64,000 bases of DNA from Helicobacter bilis. Its GTDB lineage: Bacteria; Campylobacterota; Campylobacteria; Campylobacterales; Helicobacteraceae. The DNA lies in contig NZ_FZMS01000023.1 in assembly GCF_900198365.1 (NCBI RefSeq), positions 1-64,000 of the forward strand. Direction: 5' to 3'. Below are positions 451 through 62,551 of the stretch, piece after piece (position 1 is the first letter of the stretch; each line of letters begins with the position of its first letter). The translations under genes were made by a program, and so were the position numbers. The notes beneath the pieces are model-generated. The model saw nothing but the letters and a program-made list of their open reading frames with translations, searched no databases and was not told where the DNA came from.

Positions 451-512
451 TTAGCCTTTAAAATAGCTAGGAGTTACCTAAATGCGTAATGACTAGCTAT
501 TTTAAAGGCTAA
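451..512. repeat. H2 long-armed hairpin element
   Basis: Perfect 20-bp inverted arms at 451-470 and 493-512 enclose a 22-nt centre beginning GAGTTACC and ending GTAATGA. The centre has its own stem GTTAC/GTAAT, set off from the arms by facing GA dinucleotides. The centre recurs at 3129-3149, about 29592-29613, 30391-30412 and 60146-60166 with different but again complementary arms. Confidence 0.8.
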
Positions 513-3109: not shown

Positions 3110-3168
3110 TTTTTAAAATTTTGACTAGTCATTATCGCTTAGATAACTCCTAGTCAAAATTTTAAAAA
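3110..3168. repeat. H2 long-armed hairpin element
   Basis: Perfect 19-bp inverted arms (3110-3128, 3150-3168) enclose a 21-nt centre. On the minus strand the centre reads GAGTTATC...GATAATGA. Compared with 451-512 the inner stem is TTAT/ATAA instead of TTAC/GTAA, a compensating change, and the arm sequence is unrelated. It lies upstream of the capsid gene, where it could act on the transcript. Confidence 0.8.
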
Positions 3169-9468: not shown

Positions 9469-10506
9469 TTAATATTGACTTAAAAATGCCTGTAAAAAAG
9501 ATTCTATATTTTTTTGCAGCGTTTTTAAATCGCTTGTGTTTTCAATGACAAAATCGCTTTTACTTCGCTTTATCTCAATATCAATTTGTGAATCCACTCT
9601 TTTTATCGCGTCTTCAAGGTTTAGATTGTTTCTGGCTTGTATGCGTTGTATTTGCATATCCCTTGTGGCATATACACAGATAACAAATCGCTTTTTATAC
9701 TCATATTTGCTTTCAAAATAAAGCGGAATATCTATGAAGTATGGGCTTTTCTTTTTCTCTAAAATCTCGCACTCTTGTGCGATATACTGCTGAATGAGTG
9801 GGTGAAGTATAGATTCTAACTTTGCTTTTTTCTCAGCATTGTTAAATACTATATTGCCTAATTTTTCACGACTAATTATTATTGCTTTAGTATTAGATTC
9901 TAAATTGTGTTTTTTGTCATGTTGGTCGTTTAGAAGAGGTGGAATATCTTTATCTAAAATTGTTGCGGATTTTAGAACATTGTCATCTTGAAGTTCAAGC
10001 AAAAAATCTGCTTTAGATTCTATACTAGATACTTTGCCTAAAGGCTTAGTGCGATAAGTTATCTTAGAATCAAGATTCTTTTGAGTTTCTAAACACGCTT
10101 TGCCTTTACTCTCTAAGTCCGTGCTAGATATTTCCCCTTCGCTTTGCTTAAGGTTGATATGACAATCTTTAGATTCCTTGCTCTCTGCTACTTGAGCGGT
10201 AGCAGATTGTATTGAATCTATGAAATCTAACTCCCTTTCATTTTCCAAACACGCTTCATTTTGAGATGAAGTCAAAATAGTGGCTTTAGAATCTATGCTA
10301 GATATTTGCTTACGCATAGCATAGCAATCACTAGATTCTAAAATCTCATCACCAAATGCCGCCACAACGCTACTTTTAGCTGCCTCCAATGCTTTTCGTG
10401 CGATTATATCCGCATCAATAATCTTAAATCCATGCAATGCTAAAAGCCTTGCTGTTGTGCTTTTCCCACAACCTATACCGCCCGTAAGTATATTTGCGTA
10501 ATACAT
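9469..10506 (-). CDS. coaE: Dephospho-CoA kinase with 146-residue repeat insertion
   Basis: CoaE phosphorylates dephospho-CoA, the last step of CoA synthesis. The P-loop GGIGCGKST (residues 9-17), the IDADIIAR block, the LHPLIQ block and IDIPLYFE are all present. The protein is 345 residues, against about 200 for the family. The surplus lies between GDEIL and ISREKLG and is Ser/Glu/Lys/Asp-rich with an H1-like TKPLGKVSSIES segment. The extra DNA is bounded by 11-bp direct repeats (9894-9904, 10332-10342) 438 bp apart, exactly 146 codons; without it the protein would be 199 residues. The core residues are intact, so it is probably functional with a surface loop. A second CoA gene, coaBC, is at 56,564. 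Confidence 0.92.
   Translation of the reverse strand: MYYANILTGGIGCGKSTTARLLALHGFKIIDADIIARKALEAAKSSVVAAFGDEILESSDCYAMRKQISSIDSKATILTSSQNEACLENERELDFIDSIQSATAQVAESKESKDCHINLKQSEGEISSTDLESKGKACLETQKNLDSKITYRTKPLGKVSSIESKADFLLELQDDNVLKSATILDKDIPPLLNDQHDKKHNLESNTKAIIISREKLGNIVFNNAEKKAKLESILHPLIQQYIAQECEILEKKKSPYFIDIPLYFESKYEYKKRFVICVYATRDMQIQRIQARNNLNLEDAIKRVDSQIDIEIKRSKSDFVIENTSDLKTLQKNIESFLQAFLSQY
9894..10342 (-). repeat. Insertion unit inside coaE between direct repeats
   Basis: The 11-bp repeats TAGATTCTAAA at 9894-9904 and 10332-10342 flank 438 bp that has no counterpart in normal CoaE proteins. Inside are several further AGATTCT/AGAATCT copies and a degenerate H1 hairpin at 10031-10050, in which both GA dinucleotides have become AA. 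The unit looks composite, as if made of several smaller units. Confidence 0.8.
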
Positions 10507-17889: not shown

Positions 17890-18027
17890 TAGGCTACCTT
17901 GCTTGATATATGAAATAAGAGTGGCATAATGTAATGCAATCTTTAGAATCTTGCACTTGTCATACAAAAGCCTTGCCCCCCCCTGCCATACTGATTATTC
18001 TTGTCATACCGACTCTCCCCCTTGTCA

Positions 18028-18051
18028 TACTGAGCCTTTAGGCGAAGTATC
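18028..18051 (+). repeat. H1 hairpin repeat, intergenic copy
   Basis: ATACT, GA, GCC, TTTA, GGC, GA, AGTAT: a perfectly complementary example with both GA mismatches. The same sequence, read as codons, gives the CHTEPLGEVS peptide found inside the KAS III and glycerophosphotransferase genes. Two truncated CTTGTCATAC copies lie just upstream (near 17957 and 18001). Confidence 0.8.
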
Positions 18052-18075
18052 TAAAATGTATAACGGAGTGTAATA

Positions 18076-26087: not shown

Positions 26088-27660
26088 TTATTCGGCATAG
26101 ATTCCAACCTTTTGACATTTAAATCCTTTATCTAGCGTTACCACCGCATTCCCCCACGCTAATCCCGCACCAAATCCAGCTAAATGCACCCTTAAAGGAG
26201 TTTCTAGCCCGTTACTCGCTAACTCTGCTAGAGTGTCGCATATTGTCGCTGGGATTGAACAGCCGCTAAGATTGCCGTATTTATTAGTCGTGGTATTTGG
26301 GACTTTCTCTTTTGGTAGCCCTAAACTTCGCGTGATGTTATCTACAATATATTTATTTGCCTGATGAAAAAAAGAAGTAATCAATCGCTTCTTTATCACA
26401 TTGTGCGTAATCTATAATGCCCTGAAATGTCTTTGGATAAGCAGAAACCGCAAAGCTAAAAATCTCTGCTCCGTCCATATATAAGTCTTTAAGACTTCGG
26501 CTCTCGCCTGTCTGCCATACTTTAAAATCTGTGATAATCTCTTTTGTTGGGATTCTACACGCACCTTGTGGGATTATGAGTTGGTGAAATTTAGAGCCAT
26601 CGCTACCTAACTCAAAATAATGCTCTTTTGGCAATTCAGCTTGCTCTAAAGAAACTTCGTTTTGCGATAAATGTGAGAGCTGCGAAAAATCGCACAGGTC
26701 TCCGCTTAGGTAACTCCCTTGTACTTTTTCTTGCAACCCACATTTACTAAAGAAACTGCGGCTTTGCCTTGTTTTCTCATCAAAAATCTTAGAATTGCTG
26801 GAATCTAGCTTTGTAGAATCTGCTTGAGATTCTGGGGTCTTGTCATTTTGAGCCTTTGAAAAAGGCGAAAAATCTCTTTTGGATTCTATGTGAGATACTT
26901 CGCCTAAAGGCTCAGTATGACAAGGGGCAGAATCGGCGTGAGATTCTGTATCGCTAGAGTCTTGGCATTCTAAGATTGTGGATGAATTTTTGGGGTTATG
27001 CAAGGTAAGCGAATGAGGCGATGTAGCCGTAGGCGAAATCCACACTTGCAAATTAGACATACGCCGCAATGAAGTGGGCGCAGCATTCCCCAAAAAGTCG
27101 CCACAAGCTGAATGCCTAGCTAAATTGCGTTCTAGTAAAGTCGCACTCACCCCATCCCCCATTATCGGCGCTAAATTAGAATCTAGCGGATTAACAAACT
27201 TGCTTAAAGTATCGCCAACGATAAGTAGCACACGATTTGCCCCGCCGCTATCACATAAACTATGCGCCACATATAGGCCATAGAGATAGCCCGCACAGGC
27301 TTGATTTATATCAAAGCTAAGGCAGGATTGACTTAAGCCGAGTTTGCCTTGCAAATAGCACGCACTTGCTGGGCAGGAGTAATCAGGGCTTTGCGTTACA
27401 AAAATAAGCGCATGAATACTCTCTCTTTCCACATTTAAAGATTCTAAAAGCCTTGTAGCCGCTTACAGTCCTAAATCACTCGCGGTAATGTGTGCTTCAG
27501 CGATATGGCGAGTTTGCAAACCTATGACTTTTTTAATCCGCTCTAAGCCCTTTTTATCACCTTTGTAAATGGTGTCAAGCTCGGAATCTATGTCTATAAC
27601 CTTTGGTGGCACAATGGTGTAAATGCCTTTTATGCTTATGTTATGAAAAGTCGCTTTCAC
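26088..27660 (-). pseudogene. 3-oxoacyl-ACP synthase III-like gene, interrupted
   Basis: A KAS III (FabH-type) condensing enzyme with a GTG start. The catalytic triad is visible: Cys in QACAGYLYG, His in HQANKYIV and Asn in NKYGNLSG. The gene is interrupted by an in-frame TAA at 27463-27465 (after residue 65) and by a +1 shift at a run of seven T (26367-26373) just before the catalytic His. It also carries a repeat insertion of roughly 130 codons (about 26640-27020) with H1 hairpins at 26845-26873 and 26895-26918. As written it cannot make an active enzyme. Its likely role was making or loading an unusual acyl group on the dedicated carrier. Confidence 0.78.
26845..26918. repeat. Two H1 hairpins in opposite orientation
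   Basis: 26845-26873 reads ATTTT, GA, GCC, long loop, GGC, GA, AAAAT on the plus strand. 26895-26918 reads ATACT, GA, GCC, TTTA, GGC, GA, AGTAT on the minus strand. The second is translated in the KAS III frame as CHTEPLGEVS. Confidence 0.75.
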
Positions 27661-28399: not shown

Positions 28400-29966
28400 T
28401 TATGGTTTTATTCTCTTAAATCTCTCACTCACTTCTAAAGATTCCACAATGCTTACTTTACTTGGAATCTTAAAGGGGGCGAGTTTGTCTTTGCAGAAAG
28501 CGCGGATATGTTTTTTTAGCGTTAAGTTTGAATTAGCGTGAGATTTAGATTCTACTGCTTCTATTTTTTCAGAATCTAACACCACCTTTACACTCACACT
28601 TTGCCCTGTAATAGCATTAGATTCCCCATATACAACACAATCACTTATAAATGGAATCTGTAATAGCACCCCTTCAACTTCTTGTGGGATAACTTTCTCT
28701 CCACCTACATTTATAACTTCTTTTGCCCTGCCTATGATTTTTATATACTCTTCCCCATTAATAAACTTTGTTTCTACTAAATCTCCTGTTGCAAAGTAAC
28801 CTTTATTATCAAACACACTATTATCACTATTAAGATAGCCTATTGCGTTTGTGTGGGATTTAAGATAGAGTATATTATCCACTATCTTGTAGTCTGCATT
28901 TATGATTCTAAAAAACTCTGCGAAGTCGATCTCATCTGCTTGTTTGGTTTTAATGGCATTTGTCTCACTTGTCCCAAAGCTTTGTTTGAATCTTGTGTGC
29001 GGCAGGGCTTGTTGCAGAGATTCTAAAAGTTTTGAAGACATTTTTTCGCTTCCATAAATGACTAGCTTTAAATGAGTTAAATCATAATCACTTAATCCAG
29101 CTACAAGTAAAAGTCGCAACAATGTCGGTGAAGCAGGCAAAATCTCTACTTTGTGTTTTTGTAAAGATTCTAGAATCCACTGCGGACTCCGCTCTTTTGG
29201 GATAATAAGGCTTCCACCGCTCCCAAAGGTATTTAGCATTACATCAATCCCTGCGATATGGTCTGGCAAATATACACTCATTATACGCAATGGATTTTGC
29301 CTTTTATTACAATAAGATTCTAAAAATGTGTTTAGATTATGCACTATGGCTTTGGGTTTGCCTGTGCTACCGCTTGAAAAAAGGATTAGTCCGCTTGTGT
29401 GATTTGCCTGTAAAGAGGTGATAATACTATGCTTCTTATCTGTGTTATGCGTAGAATGCAGGGTGTTATCATAAAAAAGATAGTCTATCTGCCCCTCTTT
29501 GATATAAGATTGAAGCATAGAAGAGAATATAGAATCCTAGATTCTGCGTTGTCTTTTTAGCACTTTCAAGGGAGTTTGATATTGCAACTGCGTCATTATC
29601 GTTTAGATAACTCCTTGTTGCAATATCTACACAACCTGCAAAATTACCTAAAGATACTTCCGCAGTGGGCGTTTTGGTTTTTATAGAATCTTTTGGGGCA
29701 AGTGAAGCAGATAGCGGCGTTATAATAAAGCCCTTTTCTACACACGCTAAGAAAAAGGCTAAAGTCTTTAAATCATAATCGCCGATAATGCCAATGACAC
29801 TATTTGCCTTTATGCTATTGAGTAAATTTAGGGCATTGCGTATAGAATCTAAAAGCTCCCCATAAGTGTGGCTTTGATCTTGTGCAATAAGACATATAGA
29901 ATCTTGCTCAAAACTTTGAATTTTGCGTAAAAATAGGTGCGTGAAATTATAAGAATCACTACGCAT
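28400..29966 (-). pseudogene. AMP-dependent acyl ligase split by a 154-bp insertion
   Basis: An adenylate-forming ligase (ANL superfamily): P-loop SSGSTGKPK, YGSEKMS, FGTSETNA, YFATGDLVE and GRAKEVINVGGEKV in order. It would activate a carboxylic acid and load it on an acyl carrier protein. Two frames (29966-29469 and 29518-28400) are separated by extra DNA between two GATTCTATA copies (29528-29536, 29682-29690). Removing the 154 bp joins LAPKDSI directly to FSSMLQSYIKEG in one frame of 470 residues. The insertion is not a multiple of three, so the gene is broken as it stands. Confidence 0.85.
29528..29690 (-). repeat. Insertion unit in the AMP ligase, with H2 hairpin
   Basis: Flanked by 9-bp direct repeats GATTCTATA, unit length 154 bp. 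It contains an H2 element with 11-bp arms (29578-29588, 29617-29627) around a centre reading GAGTTATC...GATAATGA on the minus strand, preceded by GCGGAAGTATCTTTAGG, a leader also seen before the H2 copies in the SDR and histidine kinase genes. Confidence 0.8.
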
Positions 29967-30954
29967 TCACGCCTCCAAGATAAATGACTTGTGCGGTGAT
30001 AAAATCACTTTTTTCATCTAAGAAAAACTCAATGGCATTTAGCACATCTCTAAACTCACCAAATCGTTTGATGGCTTGTTGATTTAAAAGGGCGTCCATT
30101 TTTGCTTTAGGGACATTTTTGATTAAATCCGTTGGCACAGGTGTAGGACCAATGGCGTTTATGGTGATACCAAACTCGCTTAGTTCCTTAGCACATACTT
30201 GTGTGAGATTGACTAATGCGGCTTTTGAAGCAGCATAGGCGGCTTCTCCTTCTAGGCGTAAGGGGGTGGCGACTGTGGCGAAATTTACGATACGGTAGGG
30301 CATTTGCGTTGTTTGCGTCGGCTTTTTTGCAGGTTTGGACTGGTGCTTCGCACAAGTGGTGCTTTTAGCGGATTGTTCGCTCAAGGCTTGGTCATTACCC
30401 CTTAGGTAACTCCCTTCGCCTTTGCTTTGAAAACACTTAAAATCCCTCAAAGATACTTCCGCAGAAGAATCCTTATTGTTAGAATCTAAGATTGCAGATT
30501 CTTTAAAATCATCACAAACCGCTTCCGCAATGGCATTTTTCGCATTATTTTTAGAATCTAGCCCCTTAGATTCTAAATCCTTTATACGCTTTTTATAATT
30601 TTGCACCATAACCTTTGAGACTTCTCGCAAGAAAAGAAAGCTACCAAATACATTTGTGTTAAAGATATTTTGCATAGTTTTTAGTGGTGTAGTAAGGATA
30701 TGATTCATAGAAGCAATTCCGGCATTATTGAGTAAAACATCAATTGTGCCAAATTCCTTTTTCACAGCCCTTACCATATTTACAACCGCATTTTCATCGC
30801 TCACATCAAGGGTAAAATGTCTGTAATTTTTATGCTCTAAATTGCTTTGTGTCCGCGAACAGCCACACACAATATCGCCTTTATTTAAGTAATACTCGCT
30901 TAAATCCCTGCCTATGCCCTTGCGTGTCCCTGTGATAAGTATGACTCTAGGCAT
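29959..30954 (-). CDS. FabG-like short-chain dehydrogenase with repeat insertion
   Basis: This 331-residue SDR has the NAD(P) motif TGTRKGIG (residues 8-15), the NNAG motif in LLNNAGIA, and the catalytic YAASK near residue 235. Family members are about 245 residues. The surplus of roughly 85 residues lies between the VMVQNYKKR helix and MPYRIVNF and is made of repeat sequence (H2 at 30383-30422, H3 at 30339-30357), in frame. The core is intact. It overlaps both neighbours by 8 bases, so it is translationally coupled with the carrier protein and the ligase, and probably reduces a carrier-bound acyl group. Confidence 0.85.
   Translation of the reverse strand: MPRVILITGTRKGIGRDLSEYYLNKGDIVCGCSRTQSNLEHKNYRHFTLDVSDENAVVNMVRAVKKEFGTIDVLLNNAGIASMNHILTTPLKTMQNIFNTNVFGSFLFLREVSKVMVQNYKKRIKDLESKGLDSKNNAKNAIAEAVCDDFKESAILDSNNKDSSAEVSLRDFKCFQSKGEGSYLRGNDQALSEQSAKSTTCAKHQSKPAKKPTQTTQMPYRIVNFATVATPLRLEGEAAYAASKAALVNLTQVCAKELSEFGITINAIGPTPVPTDLIKNVPKAKMDALLNQQAIKRFGEFRDVLNAIEFFLDEKSDFITAQVIYLGGVNA
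30339..30560 (-). repeat. Composite repeat insertion in the SDR gene
   Basis: Contains an H3 hairpin (30339-30357, outer stem ACT/AGT), an H2 element (30383-30422, arms AAGGC/GCCTT) and a 72-bp unit bounded by near-identical 16-bp repeats ending in TTAGAATCTA (30473-30488 and 30545-30560). All keep the reading frame. Confidence 0.7.
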
Positions 30955-31990: not shown

Positions 31991-33163
31991 TCAATAGAGA
32001 CTTTGCAATAAAACATTATGTTTTATAATTATTTTATTTTTGGTTACAGCAGAATAAAAACTCAAATCCCTTTTAACTTCACCCTTAGATTTCATGTTTT
32101 CTTCTTGTGTCTGTAACTCCACTAGATTCACTATATCTCCACCACTAATAGCCCTATTTGCCTCACTCTTTAGCTTTGCTGATACAATGTCTATATTATT
32201 GATTTTAGGCACACAAGGCTTTATTGTTCTTGGTGCATTACTTGCAGCACTCTCTATTAAGCCCTGCAAGTTTGCATATTGACTATCTTTTGCAGTTTGC
32301 ATATCTCTCTTAGCTGCCTTTATGCGTTTAAGCGATATTTTTTCAGCCATTTTTGCACTCTCTGCACTCACACCATCAAAGCCTATGCGGGTAGCTATAT
32401 CTACAAACACCCCTTTTTCATCATAGACAAAGAGTTCTTGTGTATTATTGATATTAGGTCGCACGATTACAGAGTCATAGTTAAACGCTTGAATGCTTTG
32501 ATACCACACTCCCCCATGCATAATGCCCTTTTTATTCACTCTTCTTTTTACACTAGGCGATAATTTCATAATGAGTTCATACTCATTCATAGCCACTGCT
32601 TCATTTGCTTTTTGATTATAAGCCTCTGTTGGTGTCATGCCTAGTGAATCTAGATAACGATTATTAAGCAGTGTATCTGTATATGTGTCTATTCGCTCTA
32701 GCATAGATTCAAAGCTATCTAGCTCTTTTAAGTTTGTTAAAGCCCCTTTTTTCAATCTTCTCTCTTTTTTACTAAAGAAAAACTCTATTGCTTGTCTTTG
32801 AGCTACATTATGTCCTATGTATCCTTTACCCCAAGAGATAATCCTATCTTGCAATGCCCTAAAGGTATTCTCTACATAAGGCTTTAACCACCCACTATAA
32901 CCCCTTACATTCTTATACTCTATATCTAAGTTTTCCATAACAGCCTTAGTGTATTTAGATAGAAAGGCTTTGCCATTATCCCCTTTAATAACTTTTGGCT
33001 TACCATATTTAAGGATATATTTAGCCACAGCTCTTGCCACACCTAAGCTATTTTCAGTATCACTGATATGAAATCTAACGACACGGCTATATGTATCTAC
33101 CAGAGAGATTAAAACATATCTTTTCTGCCAATATTCTATAATCTTGTGATCAGACTCTGTGCT
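31991..33163 (-). pseudogene. 5'-truncated Mu-type (rve/DDE) transposase
   Basis: The open frame lacks a start and begins after a stop at 33164-33166. It shows LVDTYSRVV, then the second catalytic Asp in VIKGDNGKAF and the catalytic Glu in PYVENTFRAL, followed by a Mu-type C-terminal beta-barrel region (FVYDEKGVFVD). The first catalytic Asp and the DNA-binding domains are missing, because the frame runs into the 3' end of the endonuclease gene. It is a remnant. No MuB-like gene is nearby. Confidence 0.75.
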
Positions 33164-33876: not shown

Positions 33877-34014
33877 AAAATACCTTTCATATTTTTATAA
33901 AACATATAAAACTTGTTGCAAAACATTGACTACAACACTAAAAGATTCTAAAAATCACACTTTAAAATCGCACAATCTACTCAAGGCTATAAATATTCTA
34001 AGATTCTAGATTCT

Positions 34015-35040
34015 GTGCTAAATTTGGGTGGGCTACGGGGTTTAGGGCGTAATTTACAGAATCTAGAATCTAACACAATAGCCCATCATGTTGAGCGTAA
34101 GCAAACATCTAGCATAGAATCTAGAAAAGATTCTATGAATACACAAAATAAAGAAAATTTAGATTCTAAAAAGAATATGGATAAAAACTCTGCGGAAGTA
34201 TCTTTGAGTGATTTTAGTGGTTTTCAAAGCAAAGGCGAAGGGAGTTACCTAAAGGTAAGTGAGCGAGCCTTGAGCGAAGAATCCACTAAAAGCAGCAAAG
34301 AGACAACGCAACCAAACAAAAACCCCACCCCAATCGGCGTAGCACTACTCCTACACGACATCACAGAAAAAGCACAAAGAGAGCAGTTAAGACGAGAATT
34401 TAGCGCAAATGTATCACATGAGCTAAAAACCCCACTCACAAGCATTTTAGCCGTGCTTGAAATGCTGCAAAACAATACCATTAAACAAGAAGACATTCCA
34501 AAATTTCTTTGCAATATACATAAGGAAGCAAGGCATTTAATGGCCTTGATTGAAGATATAATTATCCTAAATGAGCTTGATAATGACTACACTTTTACGC
34601 CTTATCCGCTTTCCATGCGAAATCTTTGTGAAATTACTCTATCTATGTTTAAAGATTCTATCCGGAAAAAAGGGCTTTCTTGTGCTATACAAGGCGATGA
34701 TTTTTTGGTTATGGGAGAGCAGCGACTACTTCTTGTTATGCTTTCTCATCTCTGTGAGAATGCTATAAAATACAATAAGGATAAAGGCAGTATAGAGATA
34801 ACCTTTGATGCGACACACAAAACATTGCATATCAAAGATAGTGGCATTGGCATACCAGAAATGTATCATGAGAGAGTGTTTGAGCGATTCTTCTGTGTGG
34901 ATAAAAGCCACTCAAGTATGATAAATGGCACAGGACTTGGCTTAAGCATAGTTAAACATGTAGCACACCTGCATCATGCAAAAATCAATCTTAATAGCAC
35001 CACCAACATAGGCACTAGCATTTCTCTTTGCTTTAGTTAG
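34015..35040 (+). CDS. Histidine kinase lacking its sensor half, repeat-filled N-terminus
   Basis: The C-terminal 225 residues are a complete PhoR/VicK-type kinase: H-box SANVSHELKTPLTS, N-box LCENAIKYN, DSGIGIPE, FERFF and GTGLGLSIVKH. Residues 1-100 are repeat-derived (an H1 form reading HHVERKQTSSIES and an H2 form reading SAEVSLSDFSG...GEGSYL), leading into GVALLLHDITEK, the end of a PAS-like domain. Membrane sensor and start are missing; the GTG at 34015 has no good ribosome site, and a stop lies about 70 bases upstream. No response regulator is adjacent. Probably a 5'-truncated pseudogene. Confidence 0.75.
   Translation: MLNLGGLRGLGRNLQNLESNTIAHHVERKQTSSIESRKDSMNTQNKENLDSKKNMDKNSAEVSLSDFSGFQSKGEGSYLKVSERALSEESTKSSKETTQPNKNPTPIGVALLLHDITEKAQREQLRREFSANVSHELKTPLTSILAVLEMLQNNTIKQEDIPKFLCNIHKEARHLMALIEDIIILNELDNDYTFTPYPLSMRNLCEITLSMFKDSIRKKGLSCAIQGDDFLVMGEQRLLLVMLSHLCENAIKYNKDKGSIEITFDATHKTLHIKDSGIGIPEMYHERVFERFFCVDKSHSSMINGTGLGLSIVKHVAHLHHAKINLNSTTNIGTSISLCFS
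34088..34271 (+). repeat. H1 and H2 repeats in the kinase N-terminal frame
   Basis: 34088-34108 is an H1 hairpin with ATGTT/AACAT arms and loop GTAA, one base lost from the second GA. 34193-34271 holds the leader GCGGAAGTATCTTTGAG and an H2 centre GAGTTACC...GGTAAGTGA with AAGGC/GCCTT arms. Both are matched closely by the SDR insertion at 30,383-30,480. Confidence 0.75.
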
Positions 35041-60875: not shown

Positions 60876-62551
60876 ACATTATCCTTTGCAATGTCTTTTT
60901 TAGAATCTAGATTCCGTATAGAATCTTTTTTATCCTGCAAAATAATATGAGAATCTCCACACATACCACTTGCTACATTCTCTAATACTCTATTAATCAC
61001 ATTTATCTCATTATGCAATTCTAGTTTATCTTGCAATCCAGATTCTAGAATCTCTTTTTCTATTCTTAAAATCTCTTGTGCGGTTTTGATACCACCCACA
61101 CCTTGATACTCCCAAAGAAGTGCTTTCATCTCTCTAATATTTTCTTTTAGCTTGTCATAGCCCTCTTTATCCTGCAATAAAGATTCTATAACGCTTGGCA
61201 ATCTATCAAACTCACTAGGCTCAATGCTTTTGCCTATCTTGGTTAGAGCATCTTTCACCCAAGGGGTATCATAAATGTCTTCTAAATCATAACCCACAAT
61301 ATTAAAATCAAATGTAGGCGTTAGCACGGGCTTTTCAAACAAGCACACAAAGTCAAATATTACACCGGAGAAATCCCCTATCATCATATCCGCACGATAC
61401 AAGGCATAGATATTATCCCTGTTATTATCCCATACGATATTGCTGCAATCTTTGGTTTGCTCTCGCAGTGAATCTAGCAGTTCCTTTTCGGAATTATAGC
61501 TTTGTGGGTGAGGGCGGATAATAAGATTAAAAGAAGAATCTATAAAAGGTTGAATAAGATTCATACCATATTTGCTAAGCAAAGCCTCTCTCCCCCAAGA
61601 TGGTGCTAAAAGTATAGTAGTCTTTGTATCTGTCTTTGGAAAAAAGTGTATCTTTTTGTCATCATCTAGTTCTTTATAATCTTGCAACTTTTCTTGTAAA
61701 ATATCAAGATAAGTGCAGCCGGTGATAACAACTTCTTTTGTTTTAAGATTTCTTACCCTTTCTACTTCGTGGATAAAATCTGTATGTATGATTGAGTTTG
61801 TAAAAACACTATCAAAGTAATCAAGGGCAAATACCTCGTAAATATCTACATGTGGGAGCGAGTGGATAATATGGCTATAATGCTTCACACCTTTGCTTCG
61901 CTTGATTTGAAGTATATCAAGCTGTGGTGTGCTCATCATTACAATATCAGCTTTAAGGCTATTAAGACGAGAAATAGCTTTAGGGCTATCGCTACTGCCG
62001 ATGTATTCAAATTGTGCGTTGGGGTTGTGGTTTTGTGCTATGCGTTTGTTTGTATCGTTAGAATCTAGGTTTTTATCATATTGAGTGCGTAAGTGCGAAA
62101 TATCTTTTTTAGTTTCTATGTTAGATACTTCACCCAAAGGCTCAGTATGACAAGCAGTTGTAGATTCTAATTTCTGTATAGAATCTTTTTTAGAATCTAA
62201 ATCTTTTGTATATAGTTCAAAATCCTCTTTTGATGAAGTAAGATAGGTGTAAGGATAAGAGATAGAATCTAGATAAGTTAATATAGGCTTAAAAACATTA
62301 TGATATTGCTTGCCCTCACTATAAAAGACAAGTTTATGATTTTCTTGCTTACCTTTCTTAAGCTTTACCCCTCCCCCGCCAGATGTCAAAGAAATAACTT
62401 TATAAAAAATGCTTTTGAAGAAAAAGAGGGCTGAAGCAAAAAGGGCAATAGCAGATGAAAGCAATAAAGAGCCAGTGCCTGGATCAAGATAGGCAAACAA
62501 ACTACAAGGCATAAGACATAAAAGCAAGATAAATTTATACAGAATCTTCAT
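60872..62551 (-). CDS. CDP-glycerol glycerophosphotransferase family protein
   Basis: A TagB/TagF-type glycosyltransferase-B fold of 559 residues. The N-terminus has a signal-anchor and a YLDPGTGSLL motif, with a second membrane helix (33-52). The catalytic part has the HSLPHVDIYEVF His region, ITGCTYLD, LLAPSWGREALL, IIRPHPQS and GDFSGVIFDFVCLFEKPVL. Such enzymes polymerise or prime glycerol-phosphate from CDP-glycerol. A 44-residue in-frame repeat insertion (62058-62199) carries CHTEPLGEVS. It is the first gene of the two-gene operon with the sulfatase fusion. No CDP-glycerol synthesis gene is in view. Confidence 0.88.
   Translation of the reverse strand: MKILYKFILLLCLMPCSLFAYLDPGTGSLLLSSAIALFASALFFFKSIFYKVISLTSGGGGVKLKKGKQENHKLVFYSEGKQYHNVFKPILTYLDSISYPYTYLTSSKEDFELYTKDLDSKKDSIQKLESTTACHTEPLGEVSNIETKKDISHLRTQYDKNLDSNDTNKRIAQNHNPNAQFEYIGSSDSPKAISRLNSLKADIVMMSTPQLDILQIKRSKGVKHYSHIIHSLPHVDIYEVFALDYFDSVFTNSIIHTDFIHEVERVRNLKTKEVVITGCTYLDILQEKLQDYKELDDDKKIHFFPKTDTKTTILLAPSWGREALLSKYGMNLIQPFIDSSFNLIIRPHPQSYNSEKELLDSLREQTKDCSNIVWDNNRDNIYALYRADMMIGDFSGVIFDFVCLFEKPVLTPTFDFNIVGYDLEDIYDTPWVKDALTKIGKSIEPSEFDRLPSVIESLLQDKEGYDKLKENIREMKALLWEYQGVGGIKTAQEILRIEKEILESGLQDKLELHNEINVINRVLENVASGMCGDSHIILQDKKDSIRNLDSKKDIAKDNV
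62058..62199 (-). repeat. Insertion unit in the glycerophosphotransferase gene
   Basis: Direct repeats TTAGAATCTA at 62058-62067 and 62190-62199 are 132 bp (44 codons) apart. Between them is an H1 hairpin at 62126-62149 with ATACT/AGTAT arms. Removing the unit leaves YTKDLDSNDTNKR in frame. Confidence 0.75.

Follow-up and report, generated by a model that had tools for sequence, protein, structure and literature searches.

A 154-bp insert in a Helicobacter bilis ligase gene appears to belong to a family of hairpin repeats that occupy protein genes largely in frame

Palindromic repeats that are translated as part of protein genes have been described in the obligate intracellular bacteria Rickettsia and Wolbachia and are cited for one archaeon. 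In Rickettsia, these are the palindromic elements termed RPE (Ogata et al. 2000/2002, summarized in PMC10969869), which are about 150 bp long, encode a conserved peptide, and are found in frame in many metabolic genes (PMC10969869 and PMC3733652). They comprise many families, with translational fusions in unrelated genes and also copies outside genes (PMC10969869). The Wolbachia protein-coding palindromic repeats (WPE) are cited in PMC3733652 as palindromic repeats inside protein genes. Two further kinds of short repeat are relevant here: the REP elements, with their GTAG/CGTC tags and RAYT (Y1) transposases (PMC3733652), and the PARCEL amphipathic repeats, which are palindromic, protein-coding and tandem, and include Helicobacter hepaticus (PMC2996958). 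In the open-licence literature we find neither a report of in-frame hairpin repeats in Helicobacter nor a paper text containing the octamer AGATTCTA discussed below, which is weak evidence.

The window analyzed here is a stretch of 64,000 nucleotides of the Helicobacter bilis genome (NCBI RefSeq assembly GCF_900198365.1, contig NZ_FZMS01000023.1, positions 1 to 64,000). This genome is denoted G000 and the contig C24; other G and L numbers denote the genomes and loci compared. The preliminary description of this DNA reported an AMP-ligase gene split by 154 bp lying between GATTCTATA repeats, and the coordinates and frames agree with it. The insert consists of a 145-bp unit plus one 9-bp GATTCTATA, on the minus strand, and the locus comprises the following features.

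28400 to 29518, minus strand: downstream frame of the AMP-ligase, 372 aa, with the C-terminal part of PF00501 and PF13193.
29469 to 29966, minus strand: upstream frame of the AMP-ligase, 165 aa, open on through the element in the standard phase of the family.
29682 to 29690, minus strand: left (5') copy of GATTCTATA.
29537 to 29681, minus strand: unit between the GATTCTATA copies, 145 bp, one long hairpin.
29528 to 29536, minus strand: right (3') copy of GATTCTATA, overlapping the AGATTCTA octamer family.
29545 to 29663, minus strand: family core GCGGAAGTATC...ACAACGCA, 119 bp, the commonest core length in the family.
29592 to 29613, minus strand: conserved apical hairpin motif GAGTTATCTAAACGATAATGAC.
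29531 to 29545, minus strand: right junction and place of frame loss in the ligase, exceeding by one base that of sister copies with the same end.

Both ligase frames match PF00501 (AMP-binding), the match of the 165-residue frame being below the curated cut-off. An uninterrupted ligase with one repeat, which the preliminary description had suggested looking for in sister strains, is present in five relatives, namely L003 (G013), L022 (H. labetoulli), L023 (H. magdeburgensis), L025 (H. rappini), and L026 (H. bilis). Alignment places a single AAAAGATTC(T/C)ATATTCTC, i.e. GATTC(T/C)ATA, exactly at the site in all five, and anchored distances give a net length difference of 154 bp to each of them. 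Given this empty site, the event in the strain studied is a real insertion, barring an assembly error at that single point. It is logically conceivable that the element was ancestral in the ligase and has been precisely removed elsewhere, but the five relatives without it keep one exact copy of the motif, and such a loss, unlikely on parsimony, has in our view a close to negligible chance of being the explanation.

The ligase itself is chimeric, resembling in its N-terminal part the first, and in the remainder the second, of two tandem ligases of H. labetoulli, H. magdeburgensis, and H. rappini, as if recombination had deleted the stretch between tandem paralogues. The H. labetoulli assembly (L022) contains a run of unknown bases in its first ligase, where the tandem copies resemble each other. 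Beside the ligase, the 3-oxoacyl-ACP synthase III (KAS III) gene (26353-27660) carries a stop and a separate frame break, both unrelated to any element. The gene cluster is thus decaying, and since the KAS III gene bears these lesions and the ligase is a join of tandem paralogues, loss of the ligase frame was probably tolerated.

The insert is one copy of a family of hairpin repeats, of about 120-190 bp, that has spread into dozens of Helicobacter genes. A DNA search returns related DNA on many contigs of the same genome (best 86%, 84%, 73%, and 69% identity over most of the length), and a search with the peptide encoded by the insert reports 24 places in this genome, many of them in frames of 280-1661 aa. 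The same query returns 17-24 places in each of G002, G009, and G013, and 2-29 places in six genomes from three other genera of the family Helicobacteraceae. It has no match among 72,556 plasmids, leaving a plasmid-borne source unsupported. The common hairpin motif, GAGTTAYCT-N-TAATGAC, occurs in 41 exact copies in the genome studied (0 for the reversed-pattern control), and in 26-35 copies in each of the congeners G002, G009, and G013. Its distribution is patchy across the Helicobacteraceae, and it is absent from the sampled other families of the order Campylobacterales. Most core lengths other than 119 bp (140, 152, 170, 188, 194, 137, and 149) equal 119 modulo 3, the right ends being set by a fuzzy pattern that may misplace those of diverged copies (lengths 118, 121, 150, and 169). 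A strict regular expression for these ends matched just six copies, and the fuzzy pattern was used for the counts.

The ligase copy folds into a single long hairpin of -39.3 kcal/mol (z -4.2), which none of 200 shuffles equals. Among copies of the family, the apical motif is invariant and the stem letters differ. In the 15 non-redundant class-1 hairpins, 170 of 195 stem positions are paired, versus 117 on average and at most 146 in 2000 shuffles of arms between copies, and in the 21 class-2 hairpins 128 of 273 are paired, versus 97 on average and at most 120. Because pairing exceeds the maximum seen with shuffled arms, the stem covaries. The class-1 hairpins are frequent between prophage genes (contig C29), are present in published Helicobacter prophage records (L176, L177), and occur twice at such a position in the window.

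471 to 493, plus strand: class-1 hairpin between prophage genes, with a variable, well-paired stem between conserved internal motifs.
3128 to 3149, minus strand: class-1 hairpin of the same description, between prophage genes.

These prophage hairpins perhaps have a role in RNA processing or termination. Over the whole window, Rfam reports only three tRNAs above the gathering score, and for four hairpin loci it returns microRNA models only, far below the cut-off. Many IMG/VR contigs match the core pattern. In the 81 examined the stem is missing throughout, with at most 9 of 13 pairs over four offsets and a median of 6; these matches are therefore due to chance, and a wide viral spread is rejected. 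A prophage gene bearing a family copy has no close relative in IMG/VR.

Genes that host hairpin copies encode a short-chain dehydrogenase (SDR), a histidine kinase (HK), a UDP-glucose dehydrogenase (UGDH), MurJ, an IlvD-type dehydratase, a P-type ATPase, and a type III DNA methylase. Besides the ligase, the window contains the following copies and related repeats.

30355 to 30462, minus strand: second family copy, in frame in the SDR gene 29959-30954.
34192 to 34311, plus strand: third family copy, in frame in the histidine-kinase gene 33952-35037.
26623 to 27117 (limits approximate), minus strand: composite in-frame insert of ~165 aa, made of several repeat modules, in the KAS III gene.
9469 to 10506, minus strand: coaE gene, intact over 345 aa, with an in-frame insert of other (sister) repeat modules.
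26865 to 26924, 62095 to 62154, 9999 to 10058, and 18004 to 18057: second dispersed repeat, GTCATACTGAGCCTTTAGGCGAAGTATCT.

Near 18020 the GTCATACTGAGCCTTTAGGCGAAGTATCT repeat is intergenic, and in some genes it is read in frame as CHTEPLGEVSHIESK. Between the lipid-type cluster and the histidine kinase, 31991-33040 encodes a Mu-type transposase C-terminal domain.

The ligase had initially been taken as a sign of entry into genes irrespective of frame, with coaE as a parallel case. The copies in host genes do not support this view. Of 38 motif places examined in the genome studied, 21 lie in frames of at least 200 aa, and 18 of these share one phase; among the remaining three, two are in another sense phase (both of the 23-nt motif variant) and one is antisense. 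The other 17 places are outside long frames, many of them intergenic in prophages. The coaE gene, for its part, has an intact 345-aa frame with a large in-frame insert. At element sites other than the ligase, the nonzero net lengths relative to orthologues are 339, 93, 336, -30, 192, 207, 186, 72, -123, 174, -48, 75, 261, and -48, measured between the nearest conserved anchors; 14 out of 14 are multiples of 3, some of them sharing a site or an ancestor and hence not being independent, and the ligase is the sole exception.

In the SDR, the insert separates a helix from a strand; it is predicted to be disordered (residues 131-215 with pLDDT below 50, and 24-40 over most of the length), the SDR being the one case covered by this test for an unstructured segment. 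Within the clade, the insert occupies a single site (L003, L022, L023, L025, and L026), at which modules and length vary by species, mostly in frame, which suggests module swapping between copies. More distant SDRs mostly have no insert.

In the ligase, the upstream frame crosses the whole insert in the standard peptide phase of the family (AEVSLGNFAGC...SYLNDND...KKTTQNL) and fails only at the right junction, AGAATCTAGGATTCT, which has one base over the AGAATCTAGATTCT-type ends of L030, L033, L034, L094, and L169. In these five copies, which share the right end, the sequence is GAA(T/C)C(T/C)AGATTCT, i.e. GAATCTAGATTCT or a one-letter variant, versus GAATCTAGGATTCT in the ligase. The earlier remark that the insert is not a multiple of three in length is correct for the 154 bp, but the cause lies in this one junction base and not in the length of the element, the 119-bp core being of the usual family length. 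The broken ligase therefore looks like an exception produced by one extra junction base, not evidence of frame-blind entry. The extra base could date from the insertion, the event then being out of frame from the start, or from a later time, the single copy being compatible with both. If it were instead an assembly or sequencing artefact, the gene would be intact in the strain, with an in-frame insert. Everything does hinge on one base in one assembly of 111 contigs; however, the extra base gives a GG pair and no long homopolymer, and the independent lesions in KAS III make loss of function in this cluster plausible, so that we hold an artefact to be quite improbable.

The octamer AGATTCTA at the ends of the insert is the most over-represented octamer of the window, with 126 copies versus 4.9 expected (trinucleotide-based expectation), and about 80% of these are in coding frames, mostly as Asp-Ser or Glu-Ser. 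Counted over few, non-random loci, it occurs 19-29 times per 10 kb in G000, G002, G009, and G013, and 55 times per 10 kb in G010, a genome without the hairpin core. It is dense in most Helicobacteraceae loci examined and near absent in G014, G026, and G044. The octamer motif is found at most 48 bp to the left of 25 of 36 family copies, versus 12% by chance, and at most 25 bp to the right of 16 of 36, versus 5% by chance. An AGATTCY lies 28 bp ahead of the GCGGAAG core in the ligase copy and in several sister copies, and in many copies the octamer is 28 or 31 bp from the core. The ligase empty sites already hold AGATTC(T/C)A, and the empty UGDH, HK, and MurJ orthologues have AGATTC near the site. 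GATTCTATA includes most of AGATTCTA, and the motif is present on one or both sides of many copies; since the direct repeat is therefore common to many copies, it would not be a clean, random target-site duplication, and GATTCTATA is better read as the octamer motif. We consider AGATTCTA a candidate uptake or recombination signal.

These observations bear on how the element could have been joined to the ligase. A classical MITE would be mobilized by a transposase in trans, would generate a 9-bp target-site duplication and would enter without regard to frame, the in-frame copies being survivors. A perfect 9-bp direct repeat indeed flanks the insert and the empty sites have one copy. However, this repeat falls on the region's most frequent octamer, and the octamer lies at fixed or near-fixed distances from the core in many copies, so that part of the direct repeat belongs to the element or to a preferred site. 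Furthermore, the inverted ends amount, by eye, to just 7 bp (AGATTCT...AGAATCT), and Y1 transposases (PF01797, IS200/RAYT type) are absent from all nine element-rich genomes checked (G000, G002, G009, G012, G013, G034, G066, G068, and G075). We regard the MITE reading as somewhat unlikely. On the same search, a Y1/RAYT transposase is rejected as the mover.

Alternatively, recombination through the ubiquitous AGATTCTA, in naturally transformable Helicobacter, would import elements and shuffle modules between sites. Empty sites contain AGATTCTA, many copies carry it at both ends, and the modules at one site differ between species (SDR, UGDH, and KAS III). Its abundance in the hairpin-free relative G010 further indicates that the octamer predates the element or is independent of it. 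In contrast, 8-9 bp of homology is very short for a RecA-type exchange, and this route describes one form that the joining step of our preferred explanation could take, not a full alternative to it. We regard it as quite possible, while somewhat short of an even chance.

What is observed is a hairpin repeat with a single phase, lengths that are multiples of three, and sites that are empty in relatives. On this basis we consider it likely that the insert is a Helicobacter protein-invading hairpin repeat that entered the ligase at the octamer in its standard phase and that the frame was then lost through one junction base. The family would consist of short, non-autonomous repeats, each having in essence a single long open phase and coming to lie at loop positions within protein genes. 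The element would have entered the ligase at the pre-existing AGATTCTA octamer, by recombination or by some enzyme; as the octamer is common to the donor ends and the target, short-homology recombination is the most likely joining route. Entry would have been in the standard, tolerated phase of 51 codons, and the frame would have been lost through the single extra base of the right junction, at or after insertion, in a decaying cluster. The simplest account of the one-phase pattern in genes is that selection keeps the single open phase, because any other phase or orientation brings stops, and such copies are lost. Frame-blind landing followed by selection may thus be compatible with the data at the joining step, since 17 of the 38 motif sites are outside long frames. 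A more speculative reading, which we judge unlikely, is a structure-guided mobile element: an enzyme would read the apical motif on freely varying stems, AGATTCTA would be its docking site or an uptake signal, and modules would be continually spliced into protein loops, diversifying genes without frame loss.

The ligase case itself is minor, being a single decaying gene with its frame broken at a junction. The larger finding is that gene-invading hairpin repeats form a dense system in Helicobacter, nearly always preserving the frame. Many Helicobacter species are culturable, and how such repeats move and how they affect the invaded enzymes would thereby become testable. The set of close species with filled, empty, and remodelled sites constitutes a natural experiment. 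For annotators, the family is a warning that a long linker in a Helicobacter enzyme may consist of repeat DNA.

Among described systems, MITEs resemble the Helicobacter insert in being short and non-autonomous and in having direct repeats. However, the insert is devoid of long terminal inverted repeats, its direct repeat is a genome-wide octamer, and a search for Y1 returned no parent transposase. Like REP elements, the family is made of many short hairpins with a conserved tag and variable stems, but its conserved part is at the apex and not at the foot, many copies are in coding frames, and no Y1_Tnp is found in the nine genomes. The PARCEL repeats are also palindromic, protein-coding, and present in a Helicobacter; they differ in forming tandem arrays with another peptide, and are not single in-frame inserts in housekeeping genes. 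The WPE share with the family a palindromic structure inside protein genes, belong to another lineage, and are likened to it by description. The likeness to the RPE is broader, both being short palindromic repeats with many copies, in frame in unrelated genes and also between genes. We know of no transposase for the RPE. They belong to another phylum and, unlike them, the Helicobacter family combines a constant apical motif with variable, covarying stems, AGATTCTA joins, and modular composites, and also occurs in prophage genes and as phage intergenic hairpins. With respect to the in-frame location typical of the RPE and WPE, the ligase copy fits on its left side and not across its right junction. 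Protein-coding palindromic repeats of the RPE/WPE kind, whose structural and coding features the family displays, are thus, by description, the closest kind.
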